Shown here: positions 3,101-53,700 of the stretch, piece by piece
How the letters are laid out: the number at the start of each line of letters is the position of its first letter
How positions within the stretch are numbered: the stretch's first letter is position 1
NCBI GenBank assembly: GCA_903813345.2
Contig: CAIIXF020000007.1
Location: 36,238,538-36,302,537 of the forward strand
DNA: 64,000 bases
DNA from: Owenia fusiformis
Taxonomy: Eukaryota; Annelida; Polychaeta; Sabellida; Oweniidae
Reading direction: 5' to 3'
Made by a program: the position numbers and the translations under genes
The notes under the pieces: model-generated
What the model saw: the letters and a program-made list of their open reading frames with translations, nothing else
What the model was told of the DNA's origin: nothing
Databases searched by the model: none

Positions 3101-6100
3101 ACTTTTTTTGCATTTTCTGTTAAAACATGATATCCATATTCAGAAACTGTCGGATGCCCAATGGGCATCCTTGAGGAATTTTTTTGGCGGCCATTTTTTC
3201 AAATTCTGTTGGAGTTTTCTCAACTTCAGTCATGTCTGCATTGACATCTCCCAAGTTAGCGAGTGAGTATCTATTTAACACCTTCAGGACTGTTAGCTTG
3301 CCAATTCCATGCATGCAAGATGTCGTATCACTGCCAGAGAGACCATGCGCAGCTAACAAGTTTGGGATTTTTAATTTGTGTTCATTTACGGTTGCATTAA
3401 TGTTAATGTTTGCTCGGCCAGATGATGTTCCCTCCATTATCACTATTTGATGAAAATGGAGAAATTAATATCACAACTTCAAAATCAACACTGAAACAAA
3501 AGTTACAGATTGAGGTGACCTCAAGAGGAAACAATTGCAATGTACGTGTCGTTGATGGGTATGCCATCCTTTGGATCATAACATGGCCGATGGCTGGCAA
3601 AATTGAAAACTTCTGTATTGCTTTCACTAAGTACATCCTGAGACTCCTAACCGAATCAGATGTATACCTTATCTTTGACAGATATAAAGACAATAGCATA
3701 AAGAACAGCACCAGGTCATTTCAAGCTCAATCAGCCAGTAGAGTGTATAAGTTCAGCTCTGACACACCTCTCCCTGCACAGAATGTTGTTCTGAATGTGA
3801 CTGAGAACAAGGTCCAGTTGATAAAGTGTGTCATCGACCATCCAACACCTGTACAAATTCACAAAGGCAATATTGACCAACGTGATGACTTAGGAACACT
3901 CAAGAAGAAGCAGATGTTGTTATCGTACACCAGGTTCTGCATGCTGCCAGTAAAGGCCAACAGAATATCAGTGTACTCAGTGATGATACTGATGTTTTCC
4001 TTCTACTTCTTCATCACTGTCTCAAGCACAAATTAATGGAAAATAGCATCATAATGGAGGGAACGTCATCTGGCTGAGCAAACATTAACATTAATGCAAC
4101 CGTAAATGAACACAAATTAAAAATCCCAAACTTGTTAGCTGCGTATGGTCTCTCTGGCAGTGATACGACATCTTGCATGCATGGAATTGGCAAGCTAACA
4201 GTCCTGAAGGTGTTAAATAGATACTCACTCGCTAACTTGGGAGATGTCAATGCAGACATGACTGAAGTTGAGAAAACTCCAACAGAATTTGTTTCTAGAT
4301 GTTATGGAATTACACCTAAAGTCACAGACAAAATGTCTGATGTGAGATATGCTGTATGGGCAAAGAAAATGCTGCAAAACACATTACAAATGCATCAAAG
4401 CTAAAATCCCTCCCAACAACAACATAAGCATTTTCCCAGCATGTGAAGCGAGCTCATTTCCAAGTAACTATATGGAAAAATGCTGATATGCCTGACCCCC
4501 CACTTATCCTTCCAACAGATTATGGTTGGGAAATTAACAGCATGGGCTCACTTGTCCCAACAACAATGCCCACGGATACACCCTGTGCCCCTGAAGGAAT
4601 TCTCCAGCTCATTAAGTGCACATGTGCATCAGAGGGCAATGTATGTAGAACTGGGCGATGTTCATGCTCCAAGGCATCTTTATCATGTACATTGTTCTGT
4701 GTTTGCAAGGGTAATGAATGCAATAACCAACATACAAAGACAGTAACTGAACAGGAATTGGAAGAAACTGATGGGGATTTATTGAGGGAAATCCTTGATG
4801 AAATCTTAGTAAAAGAAGATAATTCATAAATTTAAGATATATATAGCACCAAGAAATGACCCTTGTGGAACATCATTATTATTATGTAGGTTACTTTTTA
4901 CTCATTTCAGATATTTTATATGTGAGAAAGAGATCATAATCAGATGTATTTAGTATTATTTATTGATAATTTTGTAGGAAACACTAATATCAATTTGATA
5001 TTATCACAGAATGAGACATTTCATAAATTGTAAGGTTGGCGGCCATCTTGATTTTTTTTTATTTTTGTCAAGAAACATTTCTGGAACCTAACATATTGGT
5101 ATACATCATATTAAAACTCTATTATGGACAAAAACAGCAAGATTTGTTTATGTGTATGCTAGTTTTCTGTTCTAATATGCTGGCTAAAATACATAAAACA
5201 CGTGAAAATTCAAAATGGCCGCCCAAATAATTCCTCAAGGATGCCCGTTGGGCATCCGACAGTTTCTGAATATGGATATCATGTTTAAACAGAAAATGCA
5301 AAAAAAGTTCATATAATAAGCATTTCCACCTTCACTTAAAATATGGCACTTCACATCCGGACTATAAATCAGTTGTTTTATTCAATACTCAACTTAATAA
5401 TTCACATTGATGACGCCAAAGGGAGTGTATTGTGACCCATATAGGAAATCTTATAAATTTGAACCCAATGTTTTATGTTAGTGTTATAAAAGAAAAAAAC
5501 TAAATAAGTAATGATTATTGTTGATTGTATTTGAAACGTGAAATATTGTATGTTGTATTTTATGTTATATTGTACATTGTATTGTATGTTCTAGTGTCCA
5601 GGCCCAAGGTTTGCTGTGTGAGGAGGCAGGGGCGTACATGGACAATGTGAAATATTGTATGTTGTATTTTACATTATATTATACATTTTATTGTATGTTC
5701 TAGTGCCCAGGCCCAAGGTTTACTATGTGAGGAGGCAGAGGCGTACATGGACAATATGAAATATTGTATGTTGTATTTTATGTTATATTGTACATTGTAT
5801 TGTATGTTCTAGTGCCCAGGCCCAAGGTTTGCTATGTGAGGAGGCAAATGCGTACATGGACAATATGAAATATTGTATGTTGTATTTTATGTTATATTGT
5901 ACATTGTATTGTATGTTCTAGTGCCCAGGCCCAAGGTTTACTATGTGAGGAGGCAGGGGCGTACATGGACAATGTAAAATATTGTGGATATTGTTCACTT
6001 CATTATAAAAAACTGGTAAGAACATGAATTTCTTCTTTTATACAATTCATAAACATTTAACAGGGGTTTCATTAGCACTGCATCAGGCAACAGGTGATTT

Positions 6101-15100: not shown

Positions 15101-18100
15101 GATATTATTATGAGAATTAAATTAAGCTTTGTGTTCTCTCCATGAATATCCGACTTTCTCATGATATGTAATCTAATTTTGTAATCCCTCATTTTAATTA
15201 AGATTTTTACCTATCAACCAGATTTTACTAGTCATGGGGTTACAATAGAACAATATGCAAAGGAATGACTCATTTTCTCTGGCATATATTGGTTGAAAAC
15301 ATGAAATATGAACACCTGCCAATTCAAACACTTTTGGGAGTCCTTGTGGTGATTGGACTGGACAAGTTATATTGTACAGTATATGACCTAATGTAATTGT
15401 TGATTATTTTGCAGAGATATGGGTGGGTTCAGGGTCCCCCAGAGCATGGAACAGCTACTGGAGAGACAATGGGAACAAGGATCACAGTTCCTCATGGAAC
15501 AGGGTCAACATTTTGACAGTAAGTGCCAAAATCCAAAAGCCCCTTATACTGCCAATTATGTAATGAATGGTGATGACTTATGTAGTATGGTTCCCTATTC
15601 ATTAATGTCAATTAATGATCTTATTCTAACGCTTCAGAGGAGCAAAATGGGCCAAAACCCCCTGGAGACAAAAATCGCCGAGGATCAGTCTTCAGATTGA
15701 TTTACCACTCCTTTTATAGTAGTTTATACTCAGTCAGAGCAGAGATTGTTTTGTATAGAAGGGGACCAGGGAGACCACAACAATTTGCAGAGTGATTAAA
15801 ATCCCAGGTTGAGTGGACTTATCAACTGAGTTGATATCAACTTGTTGACTGCCATCCAAAAATTAGATAACAATCCTAAATATTAGATAACAATTTGCAG
15901 AGTGATTAAAAACCCAGCTTGAGTGGACTTATCAACTGAGTTGATATCAACTTGTTGACTGCCATCCAAAAATTAGATAACAATCCTAAATATTAGATAA
16001 CAATTTGCAGAGTGATTAAAAACCCAGCTTGAGTGGACTTATCAACTGAGTTGATATCAACTTGTTGACTGCCATCCAAAAATTAGATAACAATCCTAAA
16101 TATTAGATAACAATTTGCAGAGTGATTAAAAACCCAGCTTGAGTGGACTTATCAACTGAGTTGATATCAACTTGTTGACTGCCATCCAAAAATTAGATAA
16201 CAATCCTAAATATTAGATAACAATTTGCAGAGTGATTAAAAACCCAGGTTGAGTGGACTTATCAACTGAGTTGATATCAACTTGTTGACTGCCATCCAAA
16301 AATTAGATAACAATCCTAAATATTAGATAACAATTTGCAGAGTGATTAAAAACCCAGCTTGAGTGCGCTCCTCAATTGAGTTGAGCTCTCCATGATTGCT
16401 AAAGCTGATAAGATCTGACTGCAAACTAATTGCTTCTTCTATGAATGTTCATCTCTCTGGTAGTAATGTACTATTAACGAAGTTGTTGATTTTCTTTCTC
16501 AGAGATATTTATTTTTATTTTGACGTTTCGTAGGATATCCATCCTGATTCTTCAGAAATAGAATTAGATTTGAATCAAACTGAAATAATTAATTATTACA
16601 TAACAATGAGACAAATAGCAACCGTTACTATAGAAAACTTCAATGATGTTACAATTAAAAAATTATTGAGACAAATAGCAACCATTACCATAAAAAACTT
16701 CAATGATGTAATTTAGAATTAAAAACGTTACTTATTGCTTCTTGTCGTAATTTTACATGTATGAGTCATATTAATTTTGCAAAATGTTATATAGTCAAAT
16801 TCCAAGGTGATGGGGCTATACAGAGTGCAACATAAGTGTTAGCGTGTGGTCCAGAACTCACTTTAAACCAGTCTGAAATCTTTATAGTAGGAAACACACT
16901 TCATCTGACCAAGCCTAAATTGACCAAACCAGCCCCTGATTAGCCTGTACTATTTTTTTGTGAAGTTGACCCTAGCCATTGGATTAGATTGATATACAGG
17001 GTGGGCCAAAGAACATAATTTGCATAATGTACCTGAACTGATACGGTCTGATGACCACCCAGTTAATAGTCCTGATGCAAACCCCAGTGGTTATAGGGTA
17101 TGGGGATTTCTCTATGAGATTTCATCTAGGCACCCAATCTCAAATATTGACCAACTAAAGCTGGCAACATTTAGATAAGTTGAACGAAACTTAGCCAACA
17201 TTTCATCGATACATTGTACTGCCATTTCAGTATGGTGACTTAGACTTAAAGGCTTACAGGGTGGTGGACAAATTTAAATCCTTTTTTAGATCAAATACAA
17301 TCCAAGTTGAAAGGACTTTTTACATTATTTTACTACTTGGGATCGGGACCTCTGGCAAAAGGTGTATGTAAGTTGGGAAATAAAAAAGTTTTTTAAAAAG
17401 GTGACGTTTTTTGGCCCACCCTGTAGTATATATGTATGCATTTTTATTTTTCGTATTGTTTCAGTTGCTTCATTGTTGAACTGCCTCCACCAACTCAGGG
17501 CAGAAAACCACCGTTTGGAGGAGCATATTCAATCCCTGATGACCCGTCGGGATCACCTGCTAGCTGTAAATGCCCGACTATCAATACCTCTCACCCCAAT
17601 CAACAACCAACGAGAGAGAGATGGCAGCACCAGTCAGGGAACATCCCCAGAAGCGGGAAGTGTAAGCGCGATCAGGAATCAGCGAGTGAATAATTTTGTA
17701 TCCCCAGAGAGCAGAGCGGAGACTACCCAGTCTGGGTCTAGTTCACACCAGGTTAGAACAGCTGTTGATATATATGTTTTCAAATGACGCAGTTTTGAAA
17801 ATTTTGAGAACAGATTAGAAAATAGAAATTTGAAATGGGCCAGATCTTAATCCAGGATGGTCAACCCCTGAAATGGGGGTTAAAATATTCTCATTGTCAA
17901 AGTAGCCCCATGACGAAGTAACAACATATGTTGAAGTTAGATGGAGGCCATCTATTTGTAGTGATAATATACCATATTTTATGAAAGAAGCATTATATCA
18001 AAATGTATGGGAGAGCTGACTTTACATTCTTTTGCAAAAAACAACAAGTCATATATACTGAATTTGTTCTTGATAAAGATCACTGATTGTATAAGACTAT

Positions 18101-21100
18101 GATATAGTAACATGTAAATGGGCCTTGTATGAAAAATGTAAGAAAAAATCAACAGTTTACAATTTGGCTTTTAGTCGTTAATTATACATTAACCCAATTA
18201 GAACCAATTTAATTGCTTTTGTTTTTTAACGATTTTTTCCAAAAATTTCAATTGTAGAGAACAATAGAGGTAAATATTTCAATGAATTGAAAATGTAAAA
18301 AGGGCAACATTTGATATTTCTAGGAGTCAAGTTATAGCCGTGGTCAAATAAAAGCTCCAGCATCCAACAGAGAGAACAGAGTTCAAGGTCACAGGGATAC
18401 AGGTCAAGGTCATGGTCAGAGTCCTGCACAGAACCACGTGGGACACAACAGCACAGGAGGCCAAGGACAAAGTCCACACAGTATGTCATGTATATTAACA
18501 AAGTAATTTTTACCACGTTCCAGCATTAAAGAGGGGAGGTGTATAAAACTCAGGTTTTGTTTCAAATAACATTGAAAATAAAGTGGGCACTGTTTCAGCA
18601 TAAAGTTTAACTATCGGGGGGAAGGACTGAGCCTTTGTTCAATTTGTCTTGTAAAAAAATTCAATATTGATATTGAAATATAAAATTTAGTCTCTTGTAA
18701 TGGTTATTTTTTGTCACCACAGGGAATTCATCTTTTTTTGAGACAGGCATTCAGCATCTGAGTTTGGTTGCTATCAAATACACAATTTCAACTGGGTGGT
18801 GACATTTTATTAATACCTTATTTTATTATCATACAATACTGCATTGATTGCTTATTTAAGCAAAAATCAATCTGAAATGTGATTTCAGCTAAAACAGTTC
18901 TTTACCCCATTTTAGGTAACCAACAGGGACTTAGTAGTCCTCATGCAGCCTCTAACAGGACAAGAACACCAGAGTCAAGGTCAACTGGTCAAGGTCAACC
19001 ACAGGCCCCAGGTCAAGGTCATCCAGGTCAACAACCACAGGGCCCAGGTCAAGGCCACCCAGGTCAACAACCTCAAGCCCAAGGTCAAACGGCTGCTATA
19101 GAGCAGCAACGATTAATGTTCCAGCAACATCAACACATGATGAATCAAGCCCAGGCTCTTAGTGCAGTAAGTATAGATTAATAGCCTATTTTGTAAAAAT
19201 ATAAAGTAATAGGGAGGTTAGTAGAACTTAAGTTAAGTAAGTGAGCATATTTGAGCATAAGTGAGTAATAGTGCAGTGAGCAGTATATAAAACAATAGGC
19301 TATTAGGCTAATGGGCTATTTCAGGCCATAATGCAATAGTAATGGGGAGGTAAAGCAACACATTTTTATGAGAACTTGTACATGAACATGCAGTATGATG
19401 ACCCCTAGGGATTACTGTCGCTTTCTTGATTTGATTTACAAGGGACTTAATTGCAACTATTTTACTTTACATTTATACGCATTTGGGTAAGTAAATTTTA
19501 AAGAAGGGAGAACCAGTCACTAGGGGACTATAATTCTACATGTTGACATACAAGTTTTTTTTTTTTATTAAATCTATATTTTCACATATTATTTTACAGG
19601 TTATTAACATTGTTTACTGTAGAAGGAGAGAGAGAGAGGAAGATTGATGATTTTTGTCACTTTGTATGATGATATTAATGCATGTTCTTGAAAAAATGTG
19701 TCGCTTGACCTCCCCATTTACAAAAGAGATTCATTCAAATGAAACCATCTTTGATGGAGCTGTTTCCATGTAAATTGCAGTTTACACATTTGTCTCTTGA
19801 ATATTTCAAATTCATATATATTCATGATAACCTTGACGACATGTATTAAAAGCAATAAAGAACGTAAATTCTAAATTGCTGTGATAAGGATCTAGTTGTC
19901 ATTGCCATTAAACACTTTGCTTCTCTTTTACACCTCGTTAAAATGTTAACGTTGAACATTTACACATCGGGTGTTTTTGTAGACAGATAAAGTGACAGAA
20001 AGCATTTATTGTGTCACCACAAGAAGTCTTTAGAATTCTCCTTGCACTTTGTAATTTGAATTACTGTACTCCCACTTATATTTGACGCTATTATATTTCG
20101 CGTTTTGAAATCTAGCGACTTTTATATTTCGCGTTTTGAAATTTTTTGAAATTTCGCGGCTATTAATTTCCGGGAATTTGTCATACAGGATCACTCTTCC
20201 AAATTTGATATCAGCCATGGTTGTTCCTTCACCCAATGATTTTGGCTTCTAATTTCTCTTTTTCAAAACTCAAAATGCCACGTTTTTTTAAACGATTTTA
20301 AATCGGGAGGAATTTCGCGGCTATTATATTTCTCGAATTTTCCAAAACTCGCGAAAAGCGCGAAATATAGTAGCGCGCGAAAATTACAGGGAGTACAGTA
20401 TCTCATAATGGAGAATTTTAGAGACACACAATGCATTCATTAAGAGAGAATATTATTTTATTAATTTGAATAGTATGCTTTTGAAGCAGGAGGCAGTTTT
20501 ATCGTTATTAACGAATCGTTAATAGCGAATCGTGGATTCGTTTCTATGGACACCCCATCGTTAATGGAATAATGAGACCCCTATCCATACTTGTAAAATC
20601 AATCATGGAAAACGAATAAATCGTTAAAAATCATGACGTCTTCGCGAATCGTTTACTTTTGAGATAACGGAAAACTCGTTATTAATAATTGAATTAACGA
20701 TTCGTTAATAACGAAACTTTGGAGAAATAGCCTCCAGGTGCACACCTGTAAAATGCATCCATATAAGCCTTTAAATATTGAAAATATTTAATACATTTAG
20801 TGTGAAGGTATTAAAATAATTGCACTACTAAAGTAATGCTTTTGAAAAACATTTACTGATGTTGTCAAAAGTACATCCAATATCATGTCTTATTAAGATT
20901 TCTAGGCCTTTCCCCAATTACCATTACAACTGCTCCATGAGAGGGTCTATGGTAGTTATTGCAACAATAGATACATATAATATTGACATCATTATTACGT
21001 ATATGGTATTTGTAGAATAGTAATGCAATTAAAAGTTCTCACATTTTGAGGTTAACAAAGAATCAACTCATTGTAATACAGATCGGAGCCGCCAGTTTTT

Positions 21101-24100
21101 GTTCAGAAAAAGTAAATGACAGAATCATTATTAATTTTTACCAAATCATTACTAATTTTTACCAAAAGCCTAAAAAATTGGCATTTTGGCCTCATTTCTA
21201 AGAGAATGAGCATTTGGGAAAACTGGCCTCAATTTTTACAGTGGGTGGAAATTTAAAAACAGTGCTCAAAATTTCATAGAAGTAAACAAAGTGTTTCCGC
21301 TCAAGCGCAGGATGTAAATTAGTGGCCTTCATATTTATATGAAAAAGTTGAAAACAATTCATGCAACCATTTAGGCAATGTACTTACCTTTGTATTTAGA
21401 TTTCAAATATGATATCACCTCGACTGAAACATTAATAATGAACCATAAAAATCATCATTATTTCTTTAATTGCAAATGAGTTTCTAAGAAATTGGCTTAC
21501 AAACTTATACCTACAAAATTCATAACCTCAGCAGTAGCGTCATCATCGTTGTCATTGTCATCCTGGTTATGGCCATGGCCACTGTCATTGTCTTGGTTGT
21601 CGTCGTCATTTTTGTCGTCGTCAGGAGCAGGCAGTTCTATTCGATAAAACCTTTTCTTTCTTTATCACTACAATTTTGGTATGATATTGTCATTAGGTTT
21701 GCATATAAGCAGGCAGTGTCCACATCTCACTTTTGTTGCCTTCACATTTCCAAACAAATCTTTTGATAGATTGATTTGATTATTTTAGGGATGTTGCTTG
21801 ATGTAAAATCTGGAACTGACATTTGCATTATTATATATATTATATATATAAGGAAGGCTAGTGTGAAACCTGTCTATTTCGAGATAAAGTTAATTAATCA
21901 AGCACAAGCTCTCCCAATTCACTTATTTTTCCAGTTTCATAATCATTTCACTTTATACTGTTGAAGAGTATTAGTGATGTAACATCCTGACTTTCTTACA
22001 TTCGTCACTGTAGTGTAAATAGAGTTGCACCATGCCATGAAGGCATCCAGAGATTCAGTAAAGTACAGTGTACTTTCAAAAATGTGCAGAAGTAGTTGCT
22101 TGCTAATGATGCAATATTCTAAATGAGATGATTTTCAGTTTTGTTAATGCAATTGCAATTTGTCTGTTTATGCAACAAAACAAAGCTGATATTATTCACA
22201 TCATATTCATAATATTTAACAAAACAAATCTGATATTATATACATCATATTCGTAATATTTAAGACATTCTTACAAGATTAGCATTCAAAGCAGCATAAT
22301 CAATCTCACAACATTAATATATTTTTTACATTTCATTCGTATTACATTTTAACTATACTTAGGTCCTCATTAGTCCTCTTGAAGTACACTTAGGTTCTCA
22401 TTAAGTCCTATTCACATCATATTCATAATATTTAACACATTTTTACAATCTCACAACATTAATATTTTTTAAAATTTTTTTACATTTCATCTGAGATACT
22501 ATTAAGTCCTATTGCAGTATATTTAGGCCCTCATTGGGTCCTGTTACATTATACTTAGGTTCTCATTAGGTCCTGTTGTTATATTCTCAGGCAAGTTAGG
22601 TCCTGTTGTAAGTCTTCATTTGGTCGATGTTGTTATGTATGGACAGTACGGCCATGTCATTGCTGTTTTTATCTCCATTGAGACAGATTCATCTCATCTG
22701 AATAACATTACATCTTCGAGCATTCAACTCTTTCTTCGACATCTAGAGCAACCATGTTATCATGCACTTATGAGACTGATTCACCTTATCTGAATAATAT
22801 TACGTCTTTGAGCATTCAACTCTTTCTTCGACATCTAGAGCAACCATGTTATCATGTACTTATGAGACGGATTCACCTTATCTGAATAACACTACATCTT
22901 CGAGCATTCAACTCTTTCTTCAAGATCTAGAGCAACCATGTTATCATGTATTGATATTGCAGCCATGTCCGTCCCATGGACAGTAGGATTATCTACAGTA
23001 TTATTCCTGTGTTCTTCTTCCTTGAAATTACAAGACATCACCCTTTTCATGGCTGTTTTTATCTCCTTGTGTCGCCAGGCATATATCCAAGGATTTATCA
23101 CTGAATTCCCACGGGCAACACTACCAGAAACTGCCATCACCATATATGAAAGTAAAGGTCCATCCTGTCCAATTTTTAAGACAGTTGAAATTAACAGGAA
23201 TTGAATCCAGCTTATCCAGAAAAATGCCATAATTGTACATGTTGTCATGGTGATGACTCTGTCTTTTTTTAATGTTGTCATCCTTTGGTTGTCTAACACC
23301 CCAGCCGTTTGGCCGATATCAACAATTAAATTTACTTTCCTTATATAGTATGCCATGGCTATGAAGAGACCAATGTTGATTATGAGCGCAACACCGATTT
23401 GAACTTTCAGTATTGTTAGGAATGTCTCATCAAATACAGCTGCACTTCGACATATGTCATATGGTTTCCTTATGAAGGCACCCATAAACATCGGCAGGCA
23501 TACAATAAAGAGCTCGGAAATCCACACCACGATAATTATCACACAGATTGTTTTAAATGTGATATACCTAGCATGCCAGTTGGGGTATACAGTCCTCAAA
23601 TAGCGCTCTATCATCATCAGTGTTAAATGCATTAGAGACATTAACATAGATGTTGTAACCACAAGGATCTTTAAAAAGCACAATAAGCCATCGATCTTAT
23701 CTTCTATGCGGATGATGAATGGCAGATAGTTTGTGATTGCGTGAAGGAAACACATCGTCAGACCTGCTATGAAGTCAACAATCGAGAGAGACACTATGAG
23801 GGTGTTGGTCACAGTCCTTAGATTGCGAAACTTGGCGTAAATCATGAAAACGAGCCCATTGCTGAAACAAATCAGTATCCCCAGAATCATCTCCAGGATC
23901 ATTAGAGTTATGGCCAGTGGTACTGGAATCCACTTAAACATTATTTCTGTGCCATTGATTGTACCATTATTTATTGTGCCATAGATTGTACCATTGTTTA
24001 GTGAGCTGTTGATTGTACCATTGTTTAGCGAGCTGTTGATTGTACCATAATTGTTGTTCATTGTACTATTGGCCATTGTATCCATTGCTTTGTTCATTGT

Positions 24101-33100: not shown

Positions 33101-35995
33101 GTAACTCAATTTCATAACTAAGGGATGCTGTCTAATTATCAACTGTCGTGGAAAAATGAGGCTTATTTTGTTATTGTTTGTTATTATTGTTTGTTATGGT
33201 TTGACTCCCTCGCCCTAATAAAATTTAAGAATGTTAAGTTGACGTTCACTTGAATATTTAGAAAGTAAACACTCTTTAATTGCAAAATTATCCCTCAACT
33301 AGATTTTATTCCATCTTATTTTGATAAGACACGATCCATAATAAGTCTGTTATTCTGTTATCCGATATCGCATAATCATTTTTCCCTCCCTTACTGTATG
33401 ATTAATATCTTCATTTTATTTTCGTTGACTCTAAAATTGATGAACAAGTATGTGCTACAATGTTCAGGTTGTTTTGCATGTATGCTGTAATTTTGTGTCA
33501 TTTACAGCTTGTTGAAGAATACGCTTACTTAATAGGGAACATCTCAAAATATTGACTCAGTATAAGAAATAACTATAGCAAAACTTGTGTAGTTGTGTAT
33601 AGTGAACATTTTTGCCAACAAAATCATTCAATGTTGGTAGGTGTTCACTACAGGAAGGAATTGATTTTGCGGCATTTTGACGTACATATAGAGAGACCAG
33701 TTATTAGACAAGGCTAAAAGAGAAAAGGAATGATCGACTTAATTTGTATTTTCTACCCATGACACTCGAGCGATTAAGTTTTTGTTTTGTTGTAGTGTCA
33801 TATAAACTGACTTATTTAAGACTGACTGTCATCTGAATGGTTCATCCTTTTATTGTCAAATTTTAGTCTCTTCTTCTTTATAATCTCATCAAGCTGATCC
33901 TTTAAATAGTGGAATCATTGACACATTTGAATCAGTTAAAGGACTTTATTATCCCAATGACCAAAGTTTGGTAGGGATATAGTGAAGCCCTCCGTCCATC
34001 CATCCATCCATCTGGATGATAATTCGAATATTAGAAGAGGGATTTTGTTCATATTTGGTGGACAGATGTAAATTGGTTAATAGTTGTACGCAACAAAAAA
34101 AAATTCCAAGATGGCCGCTGCTTTAAAAATGGCAGGAATTTCTCATGAAAATATTAAGTTATTCATTTTGAACCAAAGTAATAAATATTATTGTTTGAAA
34201 ATTTGATAGTATATTCACAACATCTATCCATTTCATATATATTCCAAGATTTTCACCATGAGCCCCAGGGGCCATGTATGGGGGATCGGGAATACAGTAA
34301 TTTGCGTTCATTTTGAGATCTTTCTGTAGTATAGCTTTATTATACTCAAATGAAAGGCAATTTAGAGTAGATTGCAAATATTGTATCGTTTTTGTAATTT
34401 GGGCCTCGTAAAGTTCAAAATGGCTGCCTTATGTGAGATTTCGCATTAATTTTCTGATCTCTTCAAAGTATGGCTATATTATACTCAAATTGAAGAAAGT
34501 TTAGGGTAGATCATTATTATGGTATTGTTTTTCTGATTTGTGCCTCAGAAAATTCAAAATGGCTGCCAACGGAAGTTTGCGTTAATTTTGAGATCTTTCT
34601 GAAGTATAACTTTATTATACTCAAATGAAAGGCATTTTGCTACTCTGTGGAGTTGCCGTTTTAGTTGGATTAATTGAATGACATCATATAGTCCATCAAG
34701 GGTGATTTTGATTTTAAACCTATCTGTTTTTTAAATTGATGGGGAAGAGAAAAAGATTAAGTTTGGACTTAGCAGATAGAGGTAGTAATAGTTAGCCAAA
34801 TTATCTCCAAAGCTGTATGTTTATTGTATCACTGTTATGTTCCCCACTCTCTCATTGGTCTACACATTACATTCGACATGAAAATAAGATATATTCAATG
34901 GCCATGCTTATAACGAAAAAAGGCGTTTTCAAGAGGCATATTCACTGTGTGTATCGTTTCATCCAGTGTATACATTTAAACTAAATTCATTTTAATTCAT
35001 AATGATTTGTTCATGTCATTTGGTTTTATAAAGTACATATTTGTAGTAATTAAAAATATTTAAGAGTTATTTAAGATCTAAATTTCATGCATTGGCCCTT
35101 AAGTGACCAATATCTCATTATCAGGGGTCGGAAAGACGGATGAATCAGAAATGAAATTAATACATTGGTTTCTTGTTTGTCAGTTTTCCATTACCCATGA
35201 GGATCAGCACCAGCAGATGATGTTATATCACATGCAGTAGTACAGCATCCCATTACAGTCCACCCATGTAGCTCAGCGGTAGCACAGGTACCTCTCACGC
35301 AAAAGGTCCCGGATTCGATCCCCGGTTCAGGCAAGACTAAATTTTCTTGTTTGCGTGAAGTACTTCAGGGTGTTTGACTGAGTGGTCCACAACTCGTACA
35401 AAAGGCTGTGGTGTGTACTTGTATGTCTATGTATAAGTGCACATAAAAGAACACAGTGCTTCTTCAAGGAGGGGTTTCTGGGTTTATCTTCCATGTTAAT
35501 TACGTAAATTACGACCGTATATATATGGGACATACCCAAGAGGTATTGCTCACCTTCATTGGTGGTAAACAAAATACAATGCAATTACCCATAATCAATC
35601 TAACCAATCAAATGTTTTATATTACAGGATCAGCACCAGCAGATGATGTTCCATCTTATGAAGTAGTACAGCATCCCATTACCCATAATCAATCTAACCA
35701 ATCAAATGTTTTATATTACAGGATCAGCACCAGCAGATGATGTTACATCTCATGCAGTAGTACAGCATCCCATTACCCATAATCAATCTAACCAATCAAA
35801 TGTTTTATATTACAGGATCAGCACCAGCAGATGATGTTCCATCTCATGCAGCAGCATCAAGTCCAACAACAAGGTGGATTCAGCCCTGCCCATCCTGGAG
35901 TCCCTAACGTGCCACGCCCTACAGTTCCCGGGGCCCCACCCCACCCCCAAGCGAACAGGAACATGCCATCTGAAAAACTGAAGGAGAAAAGCTGA
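77..35995 (+). CDS. MLLT10: AF10/AF17 (MLLT10) orthologue, 17 coding exons, complete CDS
   Basis: Chromatin reader that, in animals studied, binds the histone methyltransferase DOT1L and promotes H3K79 methylation in the nucleus. Exons: 77-185, 278-357, 843-897, 2159-2268, 2920-3023, 5922-6015, 6625-6759, 7388-8160, 8503-8766, 9533-9603, 14173-14289, 14564-14684, 15415-15518, 17465-17751, 18324-18480, 18916-19166, 35816-35995. All junctions are GT-AG with matching phases; the sum is 3012 nt, 1003 residues plus stop (human AF10 is about 1070). PHD finger ~8-57, extended PHD ~64-184, acidic and Ser/Thr-rich middle, basic stretches, octapeptide EQLLERQW at 690-697, leucine zipper with heptad Leu 716-751, Gln-rich tail. 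The start is the Met of MKEMVGG, as in AF17; an in-frame TAG at 65-67 lies just upstream. A possible acceptor AG at 43-44 suggests a further 5'UTR exon. The last intron carries two antisense GPCR genes. Confidence 0.95.
278..357 (+). CDS. MLLT10: MLLT10 exon 2: second half of PHD finger
   Basis: Codes residues 37-63, including CYGIVQVPPGPWFCRKCES, almost identical to vertebrate AF10. Acceptor TTTGCAG, donor GTGAGT. Confidence 0.93.
843..897 (+). CDS. MLLT10: MLLT10 exon 3: start of extended PHD
   Basis: Codes KCELCPQRDGALKRTDSG (residues 64-81), the pre-PHD zinc knuckle of the extended PHD module. Acceptor TATTTCAG, donor GTAGGT, phase 1. Confidence 0.93.
1376..1574. mobile_element. Small MITE, ends CAGTGATCTCC
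   Basis: CAGTGATCTCC at 1376 and GGAGATCACTG ending 1574 are inverted; interior has repeated GCACCCACCTGA. Target duplication unclear. Confidence 0.6.
1689..1778. repeat. Short inverted repeat
   Basis: GTTTATTAGTGTTCAT...GTCACAGAC is mirrored by GTCTGTGAC...ATGAACACTAATAATAAAC with a ~35-base loop, in MLLT10 intron 3. Confidence 0.7.
2159..2268 (+). CDS. MLLT10: MLLT10 exon 4: extended PHD
   Basis: Codes residues 82-118, including GWGHVICALFIPEV and the conserved VPHDRYNK at its end. Acceptor CTAACAG, donor GTAGGG. Confidence 0.93.
2920..3023 (+). CDS. MLLT10: MLLT10 exon 5: extended PHD
   Basis: Codes residues 119-152 (SCYVCEEQGRESKATTGAC and following zinc ligands CNKPGC). Donor GTATGC, phase 2. 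A DNA transposon begins only about 25 bases downstream of this donor. Confidence 0.93.
3410..4404 (+). pseudogene. Transposon gene remnant, LSGSDTTS region
   Basis: ORF 3410-4036 carries DVYLIFDRYKDNSIKNSTRS; the conserved continuation (SVYSDDTDVFLLLLHH) is in another frame near 3960-4030, followed by an in-frame TGA and then LLAAYGLSGSDTTSC in 4132-4404. So at least one frameshift and one stop. Function of the family unknown to me. Confidence 0.75.
4443..4829 (+). pseudogene. Transposon gene remnant, CXC cysteine-rich C-terminus
   Basis: 128-residue frame: a GWEINSMGSLVP segment, then 10 Cys in about 45 residues ending CVCKGNECNN, like tesmin/TSO1 CXC motifs that end this family. It is open but cut off from the upstream part. 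Confidence 0.7.
5538..5978 (+). repeat. 109-bp array: acceptor plus start of MLLT10 exon 6, 4 copies
   Basis: The first exon base after TTCTAG falls at 5595, 5704, 5813 and 5922, exactly 109 apart. Each unit has the intron end and the first ~60 exon bases (GCCCAGGCCCAAGGTTT); only the fourth continues into the full exon. Confidence 0.96.
5922..6015 (+). CDS. MLLT10: MLLT10 exon 6: end of extended PHD
   Basis: Codes residues 153-184: CAQAQGLLCEEAGAYMDN then VKYCGYCSLHYKKL. This is the only full copy; three truncated copies with their own acceptor lie upstream at 109-base spacing. Only this copy reads into YCGYC and a GTAAG donor at 6016. Confidence 0.92.
6061..6225. mobile_element. 165-bp MITE, ends CAGGGGTTTCA, TSD TTTAA
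   Basis: CAGGGGTTTCATTAG and CTAGTGAAACCCCTG are inverted; TTTAA flanks both sides (6056-6060, 6226-6230). The interior folds on ACAGGTGATTTTCACCTGT. hAT-like ends but short duplication. Confidence 0.7.
6625..6759 (+). CDS. MLLT10: MLLT10 exon 7
   Basis: Codes residues 185-229, a Lys/Pro-rich linker after the zinc modules. Acceptor TATTCCAG, donor GTAATT, phase 0 at both ends, so skipping would keep frame. Confidence 0.85.
7388..8160 (+). CDS. MLLT10: MLLT10 exon 8: long Ser/Thr-rich exon
   Basis: Codes residues 230-486. The opening frame after the TTTTTCAG acceptor starts GKERTERSERS. It is low complexity, Ser/Thr-rich, with an acidic run EPMDEDDEDEEEEG. Likely disordered. Donor GTGAGT at 8161, phase 2. 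Confidence 0.9.
8503..8766 (+). CDS. MLLT10: MLLT10 exon 9: basic region
   Basis: Codes residues 487-574. Contains the basic clusters KKFKKHK and KKLRKRK, candidate nuclear localisation signals, and PPISPPIS. Acceptor ATTTACAG, donor GTAGGA, phase 2. Confidence 0.88.
9533..9603 (+). CDS. MLLT10: MLLT10 exon 10
   Basis: Short exon, residues 575-598 (SNMSQGFGATQSQTLFG and on). Too short to stand out as an ORF; supported by ATTTCAG acceptor, GTAAGT donor and matching phases on both sides. Confidence 0.82.
9630..9930. mobile_element. Foldback MITE of the GTGTTCAC family
   Basis: About 80-base inverted arms: TTTTATACAGGAGTCAATGT left and ACATTGACTCCTGTATAAAA right. Related sequence occurs at 40250-40460 and 52055-52205. 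Confidence 0.8.
10274..13188. mobile_element. 2.9-kb TTAA-TSD DNA element, non-autonomous
   Basis: TTAA + AGGGAATGCGAAGTTT at the left and AACTTCGCATTCCCT + TTAA at the right. TTAA duplication is the mark of piggyBac or Kolobok types. No transposase-like frame seen; the largest frames (11522-11734, 11767-11970) are short and unrecognised. Interior has a CpG-rich block at 12000-12440. Confidence 0.75.
13728..14139. mobile_element. 412-bp palindromic MITE, CAC ends, TSD TTCAC (copy 1)
   Basis: Ends CACGCGGTCCTAACTT and its inverse; TTCAC at 13723-13727 and 14140-14144. Inner hairpin CCCCAGCTGT...ACAGCTGGGG. Second copy at 58460. Confidence 0.85.
14173..14289 (+). CDS. MLLT10: MLLT10 exon 11
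   Basis: Residues 599-637, Ser/Thr/Ala-rich (ATSTASVASSHA). Acceptor ATTTAG, donor GTATAG, phase 1 to phase 1. It lies just downstream of the CAC-ended MITE at 13728-14139. Confidence 0.8.
14564..14684 (+). CDS. MLLT10: MLLT10 exon 12
   Basis: Residues 638-677 (GWLDPKSEVLSNGPIGALMG and following). Acceptor ATTGTAG, donor GTCAGT, phase 2. Confidence 0.82.
15415..15518 (+). CDS. MLLT10: MLLT10 exon 13: octapeptide motif
   Basis: Residues 678-712. SMEQLLERQWEQGSQFLMEQ matches the octapeptide region of AF10, which together with the zipper contacts DOT1L. Acceptor TTTGCAG, donor GTAAGT, phase 1. Confidence 0.93.
15781..16370. repeat. 110-bp minisatellite, 5 units plus a partial
   Basis: CAATTTGCAGAGTGATTAAA recurs at 15781, 15891, 16001, 16111, 16221 and 16331. 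Contains the palindrome TATCAACTGAGTTGATA. Nearly identical units, so young. In MLLT10 intron 13. Confidence 0.95.
16997..17423 (+). mobile_element. Internally deleted mariner-family relic
   Basis: CAGGGTGGGCCAAA ends with TA duplication (16995-16996, 17424-17425). 17065-17230 reads NSPDANPSGYRVWGFLYEI, then a decayed stretch with a stop: this matches the C-terminal SPD-NP--Y-VW block of mariner transposases, including the third catalytic Asp. The N-terminal half is absent. Confidence 0.82.
17465..17751 (+). CDS. MLLT10: MLLT10 exon 14: leucine zipper
   Basis: Residues 713-808. LNCLHQLRAENHRLEEHIQ continues with Leu at 716, 723, 730, 737, 744 and 751 in perfect heptads: the OM-LZ coiled coil. 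Acceptor TGTTTCAG, donor GTTAGA. A mariner relic ends about 40 bases before the acceptor. Confidence 0.94.
18324..18480 (+). CDS. MLLT10: MLLT10 exon 15
   Basis: Residues 809-860, rich in Gly-Gln-Gly-His (GHRDTGQGHGQSP). Acceptor ATTTCTAG, donor GTATGT, phase 1. Confidence 0.82.
18916..19166 (+). CDS. MLLT10: MLLT10 exon 16: Gly/Gln/Pro repeats and Gln-rich helix
   Basis: Residues 861-944. Imperfect GQGHPGQQPQ peptide repeats precede AAIEQQRLMFQQHQHMMNQ, comparable to the Gln-rich C-terminal region of AF10. Acceptor TTTTAG, donor GTAAGT, phase 0. The following intron is about 16.6 kb. Confidence 0.88.
19170..20060. other. Intron sequence, no feature seen
   Basis: Start of the 16.6-kb MLLT10 intron 16. 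AT-rich, no ORF, repeat or splice evidence noted. Confidence 0.6.
20064..20398. mobile_element. TA-TSD MITE, CG-rich
   Basis: CTGTACTCCC and GGGAGTACAG flanked by TA. Interior repeats TTTCGCG motifs (ATTATATTTCGCGTTTTGAA). Confidence 0.7.
20489..20735. mobile_element. Foldback MITE with TTATTAACGAATCG arms
   Basis: GTTATTAACGAATCGTTAAT near 20504 is inverted as ATTAACGATTCGTTAATAAC near 20692; GGAGG/CCTCC outermost. Confidence 0.7.
20740..22010. other. Intron sequence, only simple repeats
   Basis: Contains a CATTGTC/GTCGTCGTC-rich simple stretch at 21535-21630, which creates a small open frame. Nothing else identified. Confidence 0.6.
22680..22940 (-). repeat. 92-bp array carrying GPCR copy 1 coding end, about 3 units
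   Basis: Units start (as GAGACNGATTCA on +) at about 22680, 22772 and 22864. Each contains the reverse complement of the last ~45 coding bases plus about 45 bases of 3'UTR; the innermost carries the real stop. Confidence 0.9.
22892..24160 (-). CDS. Class A (rhodopsin-like) GPCR, copy 1, intronless, nested in MLLT10 intron
   Basis: About 422 residues. Seven hydrophobic helices follow a ~75-residue extracellular N-terminus made of DTMN and NNGTINSS repeats rich in N-glycosylation sequons. Class A landmarks: N in SNGLVF (TM1), D in SIVDFIAG (TM2), Cys in LLCFLK and the ERY triplet (TM3), W in TM4, FFWISW (TM6), NPWIY (TM7), then a basic helix 8. TM5 lacks the usual Pro. The open frame extends 36 bases upstream only with a TTG, so I start at the first ATG. 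Ligand unknown; invertebrate orphan or amine/adenosine-like receptor is a guess. The stop-codon region is repeated downstream in 92-base units. Antisense to the host intron. Confidence 0.9.
   Translation of the reverse strand: MNRSMDTMNTSMDTMNITTDTMNKAMDTMANSTMNNNYGTINSSLNNGTINSSLNNGTIYGTINNGTINGTEIMFKWIPVPLAITLMILEMILGILICFSNGLVFMIYAKFRNLRTVTNTLIVSLSIVDFIAGLTMCFLHAITNYLPFIIRIEDKIDGLLCFLKILVVTTSMLMSLMHLTLMMIERYLRTVYPNWHARYITFKTICVIIIVVWISELFIVCLPMFMGAFIRKPYDICRSAAVFDETFLTILKVQIGVALIINIGLFIAMAYYIRKVNLIVDIGQTAGVLDNQRMTTLKKDRVITMTTCTIMAFFWISWIQFLLISTVLKIGQDGPLLSYMVMAVSGSVARGNSVINPWIYAWRHKEIKTAMKRVMSCNFKEEEHRNNTVDNPTVHGTDMAAISIHDNMVALDLEERVECSKM
24385..25640 (-). mobile_element. Pearl/Helentron-like element, split by an hAT-type insertion
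   Basis: On - the 3' end is a GTCCGTCC-type (ACGG) microsatellite followed by a hairpin (plus strand TTATTCCACCGCATGAAGTT then GTGGGGTATA at 24385-24420). Degenerate core repeats (AAATGGCTGCCATTTT, GATTTGGTTCAAATT) follow and continue past 25594. Pearl elements of bivalves have this layout; family assignment is inference. Confidence 0.6.
24726..25586. mobile_element. 861-bp hAT-type MITE with 8-bp TSD
   Basis: TAGAGGTGTAACTC at 24726 and GAGTTACACCTCTA ending 25586, flanked by CTAGGGAC at 24718-24725 and 25587-25594. An 8-bp duplication with TAGAGGTG ends fits hAT. No transposase frame. Confidence 0.9.
25680..26680. repeat. 57-bp minisatellite, about 17.5 units
   Basis: Unit contains GGAATTAACTTTGTTAATCA and ATATATAGGGGTCATA. 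Units differ mainly at one spot (AGA, AGC or ACC before TTTTCCC). 57 is 3 x 19, so the frame stays open for 328 residues by periodicity. Confidence 0.97.
27030..27385 (+). pseudogene. Second fragment of the CXC-family transposon gene
   Basis: FVMILYNRDNNETTVNAARQ then EMFTRKTTQTENIPQT, and, after the TAG, LYALQQHIKHVLFQAVYVQG and LGWESTTTKI in the same order as this family shows just before the CXC part. Internal stops; no CXC tail seen. Confidence 0.65.
27409..29257. mobile_element. 1.85-kb foldback element with CAAATAGTGACTG ends enclosing a minisatellite
   Basis: CAAATAGTGACTG...CAATAGTGTAAAT at 27409 is inverted as ATTTACACTATTG...CAGTCACTATTTG ending 29257. 27440-27745 is a complex hairpin (GAATATCCTCT against AGAGGATATTTC; GATTGAATATAGGTTTTATTCC inverted near 27690). 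A related single end lies at 62451-62580. Confidence 0.7.
27790..29110. repeat. ~140-bp degenerate minisatellite rich in AGGTCA half-sites
   Basis: About 9-10 units sharing CATCTACATGTTCTCAGAA, TTTGACCTTCAATGACCTTC and AAGGTCAAAAAGGTC. Many AGGTCA/TGACCT words at spacings of 3-4 bases; TCAAGGTCA occurs at 27855 and near 28550, 28686 and 28859. Confidence 0.9.
30473..31460 (-). repeat. 92-bp array carrying GPCR copy 2 coding end, about 11 units
   Basis: GAGACGGATTCACC recurs at 30565, 30657, 30749, 30841, 30932, 31024, 31116, 31208, 31300 and 31392, with a diverged unit before. Same unit as downstream of copy 1. The period is not a multiple of 3. Confidence 0.93.
31420..32694 (-). CDS. Class A GPCR, copy 2, intronless, nested in MLLT10 intron
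   Basis: 424 residues, tandem duplicate of the receptor at 22892-24160, same orientation. ERY, NPWIY, the TM3 Cys and the TM2 Asp are all kept, so it looks functional. TM3 to TM5 is identical to the other copy, while the N-terminus (MIRSMDTMNRSMNRL type repeats), the third intracellular loop and TM6-TM7 differ. The ATTGATCTGTTCATTGTATCC-type DNA repeat coding the N-terminus continues upstream of the chosen ATG to about 32760, so the start could shift by repeat slippage. About eleven 92-base copies of the coding end follow the stop. Confidence 0.9.
   Translation of the reverse strand: MIRSMDTMNRSMNRLMDTPNRSIDKMNGPMDIINTSMDTIPKSPMNNSYGTINSSLSNGSINDTINSGTINDTEIMFKWIPVPLAITLMILEMILGILICFSNGLVFMIYAKFRNLRTVTNTLIVTLSIVDFITGLTVCFLHAITNYLPFIIHIEDKIDGLLCFLKILVVTTSMLMSLMHLTLMMIERYLRTVYPNWHARYITFKTICVIIIVVWISELFIVCLPMFMGAFIRKPYDICRSAAVFDETFLTILKIQVGVMLAINIGLFIAMAYYIRKVNLIVDIGQTAGAENSLTLTTLKKDRVITMTTCTIMALFWISWAQYLFISTLLDIGQDGPLLSYLVMAVSSNVALGNSMANPWIYAWRHKEIKTAMKKVMTCNLKEDEHRNNTVDNPTVHGTDMAAMSIHDNMVALDLEERVECSKM
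32990..33945. other. Intron sequence upstream of GPCR copy 2, nothing identified
   Basis: AT-rich; a short GTTCACTACAGGAAGG stretch near 33640 resembles the GTGTTCAC repeats. No clear promoter of the GPCR recognised. Confidence 0.5.
33946..34660 (-). mobile_element. Pearl/Helentron-like element, second copy
   Basis: Same - strand signature: TTATCCCAATGACCAAAG then TTTGGTAGGGATATA hairpin, CCGTCCATCCATCCATC microsatellite, and three ~170-base core repeats with AAAATGGCTGCC and TACTCAAATGAAAGGCA. Confidence 0.6.
35202..35845 (+). repeat. 94-bp array: acceptor plus start of MLLT10 last exon, 3 copies plus a diverged one
   Basis: GATCAGCACCAGCAGATGATG starts after ATTACAG at 35628, 35722 and 35816 (94-base steps), with an older copy at 35202 separated by a SINE. 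Upstream copies carry ATG(A/C)AG-TAG where the real exon has ATGCAGCAG. Confidence 0.95.
35257..35583 (+). mobile_element. tRNA-derived SINE
   Basis: A box TAGCTCAGCGGT at 35269-35280, B box-like GGATTCGATCCC at 35311, then a ~250-base non-tRNA body. Flanked by ATTAC (35252-35256, 35584-35588). It sits inside the acceptor array of MLLT10 exon 17. The acceptor stem does not pair, so not a working tRNA. Confidence 0.75.
35816..35995 (+). CDS. MLLT10: MLLT10 exon 17: C-terminus
   Basis: Residues 945-1003 and TGA at 35993-35995. DQHQQMMFHLMQQHQVQQQ leads to a Pro-rich stretch and the ending SEKLKEKS, close to the EKS end of human AF10. This is the last of a tandem series of acceptor-plus-exon-start copies. 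Confidence 0.9.
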   Translation, partial: DQHQQMMFHLMQQHQVQQQGGFSPAHPGVPNVPRPTVPGAPPHPQANRNMPSEKLKEKS

Positions 35996-40249: not shown

Positions 40250-40460
40250 CATATGATAGATGTGAAATTTTTTGAAAAGTGTTCAGATTAGACAGGGTAA
40301 TTTTTCAAATATGACTGTTCACTGTTCGAATTGAGAGGTGTTCACATTTCAAGTTTTTTTAACATGGGAGTCAATGGGATGAAAAAATGGGACCGAAAAA
40401 AAGTGTTCAGATTTGGAGGTGTTCGGATTAGTCAGGTGTTCAGATATACAGGTTCTACTG
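40250..40460. repeat. Dispersed GTGTTCAGAT repeat, intergenic copy
   Basis: AAGTGTTCAGATTTGGAGGT and CAGGTGTTCAGATATACAGG recur in the 52055-52205 sequence into which the LINE inserted, and resemble the arms of the 9630 MITE. Confidence 0.7.
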
Positions 40461-41115: not shown

Positions 41116-41129
41116 TTTATTCATTTATT
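41116..41129 (-). terminator. Candidate RAB3GAP1 polyadenylation signals
   Basis: On the - strand two AATAAA motifs (plus-strand TTTATT at 41116-41121 and 41124-41129) lie about 390 bases past the stop. This would put the repeats at 41290-41510 in the 3'UTR. No transcript data. Confidence 0.4.
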
Positions 41130-41289
41130 ATTTCTTCCTCTATGGTAGCATGGTACCAACAGCATCTAGAATTTCGTCAAAATTACATTTACATGTAATG
41201 TTGGCAGTCAATTTCCAATTCCATATTGCACTTACTCTTAATATGTTCTACTTCAATTGAAATGTAATTAAAAACTCATTAATAGGTCA

Positions 41290-41535
41290 CATCCTCCATG
41301 AAAGATTTTATCCTTAATCAAAAGTTACATTCTCTACTTCATGAAAGTTTGTATCCTCCAAAAAGGCTGTATCCTCCATGTAAAAATAACCTAATATGGA
41401 GGACTATTCCACCTCATTTAAAGGTGGTATGCTCAATCAAAAGTTGTATCCTCCATGAGAGTTTGTATCTTCCAAAAAAGGTTTATCCTCCATGTAAAAC
41501 TGATCTATCCTCATTGAAAGGTTGTATCCTCCGTG
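41290..41535 (-). repeat. Decayed ~25-45-bp repeats derived from RAB3GAP1 stop-codon region
   Basis: On - the coding end GGAGGATACAACCTTTCAATGA is followed by about nine diverged versions (GGAGGATACAAACTCTCATG, GAGGATACAGCCTTTTTGG and others) across the 3'UTR. Confidence 0.7.
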
Positions 41536-41732
41536 AAAGCTCCAGCGAGTCTAAACTCATTGTTCAACAATGTACAATGAAGTCTCTGGGGGGAAGGCTT
41601 GGAGTAGGGAGCAGGGCGAGGCACTTCTGTACGCAGAATATACTCCCTGCCAGCAGGTTTAGGGAAATCTCCACCTGAGGGAGGTTGATTTTCTAAGCTT
41701 GGGGCTACATCAACATCTAAGTCATTGGAGGC
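41511..41732 (-). CDS. RAB3GAP1: RAB3GAP1 exon p: C-terminus
   Basis: Codes ASNDLDVDV to PAGREYILRTEVPRPAPYSK and FRLAGAFTEDTTFQ, TGA at 41511-41513. The end matches the human C-terminus closely. Confidence 0.95.
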   Translation of the reverse strand, partial: ASNDLDVDVAPSLENQPPSGGDFPKPAGREYILRTEVPRPAPYSKPSPQRLHCTLLNNEFRLAGAFTEDTTFQ

Positions 41733-50700: not shown

Positions 50701-53700
50701 GTTTCTATGTAGTCCATATCTCCAGGTTTGCCAGTGTTAATGCTACTAGTGCTAGCTGAAGCATGTAATATACCGCTATTAACTTCTGCTAATTTGGCCT
50801 CTCGTTTGACTTTTCTCTCGATGCAACAGTTCAGCATTTGGAGTTTTTGGTGAATTAGGCTACACCCCATGTTTGGTATACTTTTATCTAACCTGAAATT
50901 ACAATAAAAAACAGTAATCACACGAAAATAGTAAACACAGCTCCTGTACTAAATATATGTAGAAACTATCTGATACACGAACAAAAGTTTTTCAATGACT
51001 GAGAACTTGGAAAATGGTGATGATTGATGACAGGTCAGAAAGACAAAACAAAATGACTGTGCAAACCACCATCATTTTTTAATTTTGATATAAGATGGGC
51101 TAAATCCCCATTGAAACGATGTTAAATAAAATATCTAAAATATGTTAAATCACAATCTGCATGTCATAAGATCATATAGTTGCTTGCTAAAGGCATTTTA
51201 CATATTTGGAAATATTTTACAAATCAAATATAATAGACTTTTGTGAGTTTTATTTCATTGAGCATGCTGGTATATACATGTACATGTAGTCTAAGCAATA
51301 CAAGTACTGCCATCTATTCATGTGTATAGCAATTAGTTAAATGCAAACTATTTCTCTTCAAAGTACAACAAAGTTTATACTTTTACATGTACTCACAATG
51401 GAATGTAGTAATTATTTTCCCATCTGTATCTCATCTCAAGCACAAACTCCTGCCACAGATGTGCTACTGCCTTAAGCCCTCCATAGCTATGGTGCACTAG
51501 ACACATACAAACTGCCAATTTGTGGGTAACACTTTCAACAGGGGCAGATTTCAGTTGGTGTAGAAGATGCTAAAAAAACAGTGGCGTATCAGACACATAC
51601 AAACTGCCCATTTGTGGGTAATACTTTCAACAGGGGCAGATTTCAGTTGGTGTAGAAAATGCTACAATACAACAGTGGTGTATCAGACACATACAAACTG
51701 CCAATTAGTGGGTAATACTTTCAACAGGGGCAGACTTCAGTTGGTGTAGAAGATGCTAAAATACAACAGTGGTGTATCAGACACATACAAACAGCCAATT
51801 TGTGGGTAATACTTTCAACGGGGGCAGACTTCAGTTGGTGTAGAAGATGCTAAAATACAACAGTGGTGTATCAGACATATACAAACAGCCAAATTGTGGG
51901 TAATACTTTCAACGGGGGCAGACTTCAGTTGGTGTAGAAGATGCTTAAATACAACAGTGGTGTATCAGACATATACAAACAGCCAAATTGTGGTATAATA
52001 CTTTCAAAAGGGGCAAATTTCAGTTGCGATAGATGCTAAAATACAACAGAACGTCACCCGAACATCACTTGGACGTGCCAACAAAAATTGTTCAGATTGC
52101 CAGGCATACACATTTCAAAGTTTTAAATATGGTAATTTATGGCCAATTAGAAACTGGGACCTAAAAGTGTTCACTTAAAGAGGTGTTCAGAATAAAGAGG
52201 TGTTCAGATATTTTTTTTTTTTTTTTTGTATTTGTCAAATTTATTAAAGTGTCCTGGGCATATATTAATACAAACATGTAGCTAAAATACAAATGGTAAT
52301 AAAATTCAAACGTATTAAAAGCATTCAATATTCTTACCCCAGGCCGTGTTCGGCCTATAAGACACTATGTATAAAACGATATTCATCAAAATTAACTGTA
52401 CAGTTTATGTTCTCTTTTTTTAAACATTTGGCCACAGGCCTTTGCCACATAAACAGCAATCTCATGATTTGACATCAAGATATAGAACTTCTCATCGTCA
52501 GTAAGTCTTTGAAAGTTTGTAATTTTATTCTGAACCTTGGAAAATAAATCATTTCTGATACTAGAATAAAACGGACATTTTAACAAGAAATGGTGTTCAT
52601 TTTCAATGGCATTAACATCACAAAAATAACACAGTCTCTCTGGAACTGACAGTCGTTCGTAACGCCCCGTTTCCAAACGTAGCGGAGCAACGCCACATCT
52701 CAAAGAGGCTAATGCTTTCCGGTCGCGAATGGAAATATGAGATGCTAGGTAGAATTCCGGTTGTAAATCCAGCTTGAAAGTTCTGTATGTTCTTAACTTA
52801 TTTCCTTGGCCTGCTGGGCGGTTTCCGTCGTTCCAAATGGTTTGTTGCCAGCTTTGGAAGACAATAGCCTCTAGTTCGGCAGATACGTGGCCAAGTGGAG
52901 AATCAAACGGAAGTGAGAGATATACAGGTTTTAATGCATACCTTTATCTCTGTCTCTATAGCAGTATTTTTGTTTTCTTCGCCCTCTGCAACTGGTACAA
53001 CCAGAGGGAGGTCAGCAGTCTCCACCTGGGCATCAGGGAATAAAAACTGAAAACAAAATAACATGTTTATAGCAAAATCTAAAACATACTTGATTAAACA
53101 GCCATCTTGCAAAAGGCAATTACAAAACCTCATAAAATCCTAAGAAGTAAAAGGTTTGACCTGGGAGGTATTGGTGGCCCAACTGAGCAGAGGCTAGCTT
53201 ACAATTAATTCACAAGGCCCCATAGAGTGAATATTTTACGAGGAAACTCACCAAAAGGATCTTATTGAGCAGCTCCCCTCTTATGGGTGCCTCCTCAGTG
53301 GTTTGGTGCTTAAGTCGTGTGCTGGCTTTAGACACTGCATTGGAAATGGATGTCATGGAGGACAACTTGTAACCCATGGCAGGCTTGGTTAGTTTGTCTA
53401 GGGCTTGTGTAGCTGGCAACTCTATGTAAAAGATATAACACTGGATAGAAAACTTGTATACAACGCAGGCTTAAAATTTTGATGTATTGATGAACAACCC
53501 AATTTTCAAAAAGTTGAAAAATGTGTTCACGATCATTTCTGAGCACTTACCAGACCTCAACAAACTGCATTGAGCTGAACATACCCCTGGGTTCACTTAA
53601 ATACATAAACCTTGTGCAATGTGCCTTAGCTACGATACAAAATAATCATGGAATCACAGGGTCTGCTTAGTACCTGGGCATTTAAATTCTGAAAACTTAA

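Follow-up and report, generated by a model that had tools for sequence, protein, structure and literature searches.

In a 64,000-nucleotide stretch of contig CAIIXF020000007.1 (assembly GCA_903813345.2), which we refer to as the window, several genes carry tandem arrays whose repeat units straddle the edge of an exon or of a coding region. A preliminary description of this stretch had counted six such arrays in four genes. We delimited arrays with Tandem Repeats Finder and placed the edges by translation and homology, and in this way recovered five arrays in four genes, three of them at splice acceptors and two at the ends of coding regions. The sixth, with a partial exon, was not found in the window; it is possible that it corresponds to an outlying 57-base-pair (bp) copy at 35200-35256, described below, or to an in-frame repeat of 36 bp (2.6 copies) at 18996-19088 on the plus strand, within an open frame assigned by context to an AF10/MLLT10-like gene. 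The units of the five arrays measure 109, 94, 94, 92 and 92 bp, in line with the reported predominance of 92-109 bp. The host genome assembly comprises 498 Mb, 96% of it in 12 contigs, and its mean GC content is 0.348 over 16 random loci.

Two of the acceptor arrays lie in the AF10-like gene, on the plus strand. The first (array a, 5538-5985) contains 4.1 copies of a 109-bp unit, which joins 45 bp of intron end to 64 bp of exon start, and presents four TTCTAG acceptors. The last of these feeds the intact exon at 5922-6015, which encodes the end of the extended PHD and matches the AF-10 chains 7mju and 5dag (E of about 2e-8). The second (array b, 35584-35851) contains 2.9 copies of a 94-bp unit at the acceptor of the last coding exon, with three TTACAG acceptors. 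The intact exon (35816-35995), which runs through the stop codon, was recognised from its open frame and context, and comparison with Pfam gave no match for it. The outlying 57-bp copy of the array b unit (35200-35256, plus strand) is a decoy that has no TTACAG acceptor, and the 327-bp stretch between it and the array (35257-35583, no strand assigned) is read as an insert. This stretch has tRNA-like motifs when inspected by eye, no tRNA was called in it, and it has no match elsewhere in the 334 kb compared. The third acceptor array is found in a RAB3GAP1-like gene on the minus strand (51499-52049), where 5.9 copies of a 94-bp unit carry TTTTAG or variants of it; the final acceptor feeds an intact exon (51397-51569) that matches 8vyb (E 2e-22). 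The units are locus-specific: in the same 334 kb, those of the AF10 and RAB3GAP1 arrays gave only chance-level matches, the outlying copy at 35200 excepted. For comparison we used an array taken as intronic and lying away from known edges (15779-16384, no strand assigned), with 5.5 copies of a 110-bp unit. Separately, an AF10-like intron contains, at 3078-5331, inverted repeats of 120 nt (97% complementary) that lie 2.0 kb apart and flank open frames; nested between them is another inverted pair, of 241 nt. This element looks like a DNA transposon.

The other two arrays are at the coding ends of two intronless G-protein-coupled receptor (GPCR) genes of the 7tm_1 family on the minus strand, whose reading frames extend, from stop to stop, over 22892-24217 (GPCR1) and 31420-32763 (GPCR2, its tandem paralog). 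In GPCR1, the array (22679-22950) consists of 3.0 copies of a 92-bp unit made of the coding end, the stop codon and the start of the 3′ region, and GPCR2 has a homologous array of 10.9 copies of 92 bp (30479-31478). The two genes are 90.4% identical over 1283 aligned bases; the unit, the start point and diagnostic decoy variants are common to both arrays, and the first unit copy is identical in the two genes. Because these features are shared and the genes are paralogous, we counted the two arrays as one event, which we take to have been inherited and later to have changed in length. At their N-terminal ends (23939-24187 and 32576-32748), both GPCR open frames also contain short repeats with periods of 21, 27 and other lengths, which encode a putative stretch rich in Met, Asn, Asp, Ser and Thr.

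As all evidence comes from a single assembly, collapsed or expanded copies could in principle have been produced during assembly. The copies differ from each other by point changes and small indels, however, the outlying copy of array b lies beyond 327 bp of other sequence, and array variants are common to the GPCR paralogs. Furthermore, similar structures have been described in lancelets, one of them supported by re-sequencing (PMC3902484). An assembly artefact is therefore very unlikely in our judgement.

Edge arrays also occur elsewhere in the same genome. Eleven domain-family searches list matches at the level of exons, and we screened these by eye, rather than by script, for tandem matches at constant spacing, a procedure that arrays of two or three copies may escape. 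The 1259 family matches were reduced to 1235 when 24 copies within arrays were merged, and four of these 1235 carry an edge array. They are found at the donor of a TAF5-like exon (L019; 94 bp, 6.4 copies), at the acceptor of a kinesin-4-like exon (L020; 159 bp, 17.9 copies, counted as 18), at the acceptor of a RecQ4-like helicase exon (L022; 88 bp, 7.0 copies) and at the donor of a tyrosine phosphatase exon (L036; 109 bp, 2.1 copies). A fifth array, at the donor of a 2OG-oxygenase-like first exon that adjoins the TAF5-like gene (150 bp, 3.7 copies), was a chance find and lies outside the count of four. The names TAF5, kinesin-4, RecQ4 and 2OG are presumptive, given from the family match or from reading the translation.

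The four counted arrays come from eight candidate places that we fetched, and the other four were discarded. One, in a kinase gene (L021), proved to be two diverged whole exons with no edge array. These tandem exons (700-1110) encode the same kinase segment (HRDIKPQN), lie 178 bp apart and may well be mutually exclusive. A helicase-like place (C4, L023) has 2.0 copies of 181 bp within an open frame, where no edge could be defined; an RRM place (C1, L024) has only a 23-bp repeat; and a Ras place (C7, L037) consists of ordinary exons without a tandem copy. We also set aside a 91-bp array (L028) that starts just inside the intron past a kinesin donor, does not straddle it and has a dispersed repeat as its unit. 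An uncounted array of 80 bp (3.3 copies) on the minus strand of another locus (L006, 5052-5316) repeats a motif resembling an exon end with its donor, and may be another edge array.

In all eight arrays at splice edges, three in the window and five outside it, each unit holds one edge. In the five acceptor arrays the unit consists of an intron end and an exon start, and the last copy continues into the intact exon; in the three donor arrays it consists of an exon end and an intron start, and it is the first copy that is intact. The preliminary description had found no named precedent for arrays of this kind, yet they are known from lancelets as mirages (PMC3087553; PMC3902484). Mirages are recognised by tandem units that span an intron-exon boundary, as in all eight arrays here, by their occurrence at both 5′ and 3′ exon borders, as here at three donors and five acceptors, and by the retention of AG or GT in many units, which is also seen here. 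Among the variants, one RAB3GAP1 copy has TTTAAG and one has TTGTAG.

What would follow from use of the surplus sites can be read from their translation. We translated onward from each surplus acceptor, or through the array to each surplus donor, assuming that all sequence between the surplus site and the intact exon is retained; sites were located by fixed motifs, by which one RAB3GAP1 decoy was missed. For each of the 41 surplus sites examined, translation meets a stop, which lies 12-44 codons beyond a surplus acceptor or 18 codons beyond the true donor. For one RecQ4 site, this stop falls inside the true exon, read out of frame. These genes can work only if splicing mainly uses the site that adjoins the intact exon, or if the cell destroys faulty transcripts. 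The suggestion that selection tolerates a duplication that leaves one exon intact agrees with this result.

Alternatively, the surplus sites could have a function, either as poison sites that send some transcripts to nonsense-mediated decay or as a stock of alternative edges. The surplus acceptors listed do retain AG (an identical CCATAG in 17 of 17 kinesin-4 copies), the surplus TAF5 donors retain GTAAGT, and each use examined terminates in a stop. However, the high identity between copies accounts for intact sites without selection, and the outlying copy of array b has lost its acceptor. We also compared differences per site among decoys between the exon and intron parts of the unit, which are 0.073 and 0.059 for AF10 array a, 0.083 and 0.138 for array b, 0.101 and 0.174 for RAB3GAP1, 0.018 and 0.087 for kinesin-4, and 0.027 and 0.037 for RecQ4. 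Four of the five acceptor arrays thus vary less in the exon part, but the intron parts, being short or T-rich and containing the junction bases, can explain the difference, so that it is no clear sign of constraint on the decoy exon parts, although weak constraint is conceivable. In lancelets, moreover, mirages were reported without disturbance of splicing (PMC3087553; PMC3902484). A functional role for the surplus sites seems improbable to us.

We think it likely that the arrays are minisatellites of the mirage type, that is, near-neutral tandem duplications that are filtered by splicing and expanded as minisatellites are; a special mechanism aimed at exon edges is not needed. Such an array would start when a stretch of about 90-160 bp is duplicated locally in tandem, with one breakpoint in the exon and the other in the adjoining intron, or with breakpoints on either side of a stop codon. 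One copy would remain attached to the rest of the exon, and the others would each be a splice site with an exon stump that has no useful translation. If splicing keeps to the site next to the intact exon, by exon definition, and ignores the surplus sites, as lancelets suggest by analogy, the duplication would be near-neutral and could survive, while duplications within exons would mostly be purged. Growth and homogenisation would then proceed by unequal exchange or slippage, as in any minisatellite. In support of this reading, the GPCR paralogs keep an array in common yet hold 3 and 11 copies. Mirages are also marked by length instability between haplotypes or in soma; the comparison here is between paralogs.

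The number and position of the arrays bear on whether a directed mutational process should be invoked instead, one in which, for example, breaks linked to transcription or splicing favour the tandem duplication of some 90-110 bp at acceptor borders. The preliminary description had named an acceptor-side excess with a period of about 100 bp as support for a process. Overall, five acceptor and three donor edges are affected (binomial P 0.73), and outside the window donors are as common as acceptors (three and two, respectively). An acceptor-directed process was therefore dropped as our principal explanation once donor arrays emerged in the search of other genes, at a rate not above that of random placement. 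A fixed period near 100 bp did not hold up either: the eight periods are 88, 94, 94, 94, 109, 109, 150 and 159 bp.

Random placement was estimated from two samples, one of random sequence (160 kb) and one gene-centred (110 kb). Together they hold 10 local arrays in the range of 60-200 bp (95% interval 4.8-18.4); for four of the 10 (L025 twice, L030 twice), one other locus holds a relative. With all 10 arrays, and each match taken as a separate exon, 0.7-0.8% of exons would be straddled by chance, or 9-10 of 1235, against an observed 4 of 1235 (0.32%, interval 0.09-0.83%). The 1235 matches still include several domains per exon, intronless genes, pseudogenes and mobile elements, so that exons with two edges number fewer, and a few results of one family search lie outside the matches listed. 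For 800-1235 exons, a stricter set of six arrays gives an expectation of 3.6-5.5, and all 10 arrays give 5.9-9.1. The claim that edge arrays are more frequent than random tandem duplications thus finds no backing, with four observed and roughly 4-10 expected. No excess over random placement is seen, in a crude test that would be compatible with a few-fold excess. Likewise, the 160 kb of random sequence contains no array of 85-115 bp, and no tandem copy touches the match within 1 kb at any of 26 gene-centred matches, drawn from those without a visible array. The direct edge scan used there detects nine of ten known arrays; it misses kinesin-4, where the repeat extends to the limit of the sequence scanned (at an identity of 0.98). 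A codon-usage exon finder was too weak in this AT-rich genome, and the arrays in random loci were only partly checked for edges. The special common process proposed initially is therefore disfavoured, on small numbers, both by a frequency at the random level and by donors that are about as common as acceptors.

Several observations weigh against our preferred explanation by near-neutral duplication. First, the window is dense in edge arrays, with acceptor arrays at three places in 64 kb (units of 94, 94 and 109 bp). They occur at 3 of 15 scanned window exons of spliced genes, several with limits that are a reading of open frames, compared with 0 of 26 in the gene-centred sample (Fisher P 0.04). 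Taking a rough estimate of 25 exons in the window, three edge arrays compare with 0.19 expected at the density outside (P 0.0009), with 0.47 expected from six window arrays (P 0.012) and with 0.70 expected from all nine local window arrays (P 0.035). We give this density limited weight because the window was reported for being dense. Second, a period of exactly 94 bp occurs three times among the eight and one of exactly 109 bp twice, which may hint at a preferred size. Third, the four observed arrays, and the rate per exon drawn from them, are a lower bound, as family searches score the best candidates and miss short stumps. Nevertheless, donors are as common as acceptors outside the window, units of 88, 150 and 159 bp occur and there is no excess per match, and we regard a directed process as unlikely.

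The last of these observations concerns the array junctions. AF10 array a has 12 shared bases at its junction (11 of which match), RecQ4 has 2 and TAF5 has 6, as would fit slippage or joining based on microhomology. Other arrays have junction bases that match neither flank (14 in AF10 array b, 52 in 2OG, 18 in kinesin-4, and 4 and 12 in the GPCRs), as has the intronic 110-bp array (54), and these would fit joining with filler or later divergence. The method is unreliable for RAB3GAP1, which has indels, and understates TAF5, where the 3′ flank holds a further partial copy; the phosphatase was left out.

Two repeat structures elsewhere in the genome are recorded here in their own right. A myosin heavy chain gene (G000:C9:37986009-37994334) contains twelve irregularly spaced matches to one stretch of a domain (about positions 18-84), probably a large set of alternative exons. 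Another locus (L017, 5063-8218) contains a tandem duplication of 1577 bp whose two copies are 99% identical.

Structures at exon borders that resemble the present arrays in part are known from other systems. Internal tandem repeats at exon-intron boundaries have been described in human genes within segmental duplications (PMC2812944). Like the arrays of the GPCR pair, they are minisatellites located at exon borders and differing from paralog to paralog; however, their units average 30 bp, compared with 88-159 bp here, and they can change splicing or make introns. In a case of intron gain in potato, a duplication likewise crossed an intron-exon border and copied splicing signals, and in that case the duplicate yields a new, spliced intron (PMC4974935).

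The closest counterparts are the mirages of lancelets, known from Adh3 and globin genes (PMC3087553) and from TnC and PGBD5, with units of 60 and 108 bp (PMC3902484). Evidence from reverse-transcription PCR and from Adh3 suggests that they leave splicing unimpaired, and they were proposed as a source of new introns (PMC3087553). By the structural features that DNA can reveal, the present arrays belong to this kind: their tandem units cross one exon border, at acceptors as well as donors, many retain AG or GT, and their sizes of 88-159 bp overlap those of lancelet mirages (10-72, 60, 108 and 150-160 bp). A literature search that went mostly by listings and did not cover preprints found no report of mirages, under that name, outside lancelets. 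Unlike the lancelet examples, our arrays lie in other genes and apparently in another animal group, since the mean GC content and the 12 large contigs of this genome speak against a lancelet, and they include one array of 18 copies and one event at coding ends, in the GPCRs, together with a rough genome-wide rate. The apparent spread to another animal group, this rate and the 18-copy kinesin-4 array are the points that we consider worth retaining. It is conceivable, though rather doubtful, that mirages number from hundreds to a few thousand across the genome in a non-lancelet lineage, form a standing class with a preferred unit of about 94-109 bp, and continuously supply surplus splice sites and stumps of exons as raw material for introns, alternative exons or poison sites. 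If the arrays are neutral, each would be a natural test of splice-site choice among up to 18 near-identical sites, for which the kinesin-4 array is a test case, and might mark the beginning of intron gain. The rough rate serves for comparison with other genomes, and arrays in unrelated genes of a seemingly non-lancelet genome would widen a phenomenon that we found described only for a few lancelet genes.

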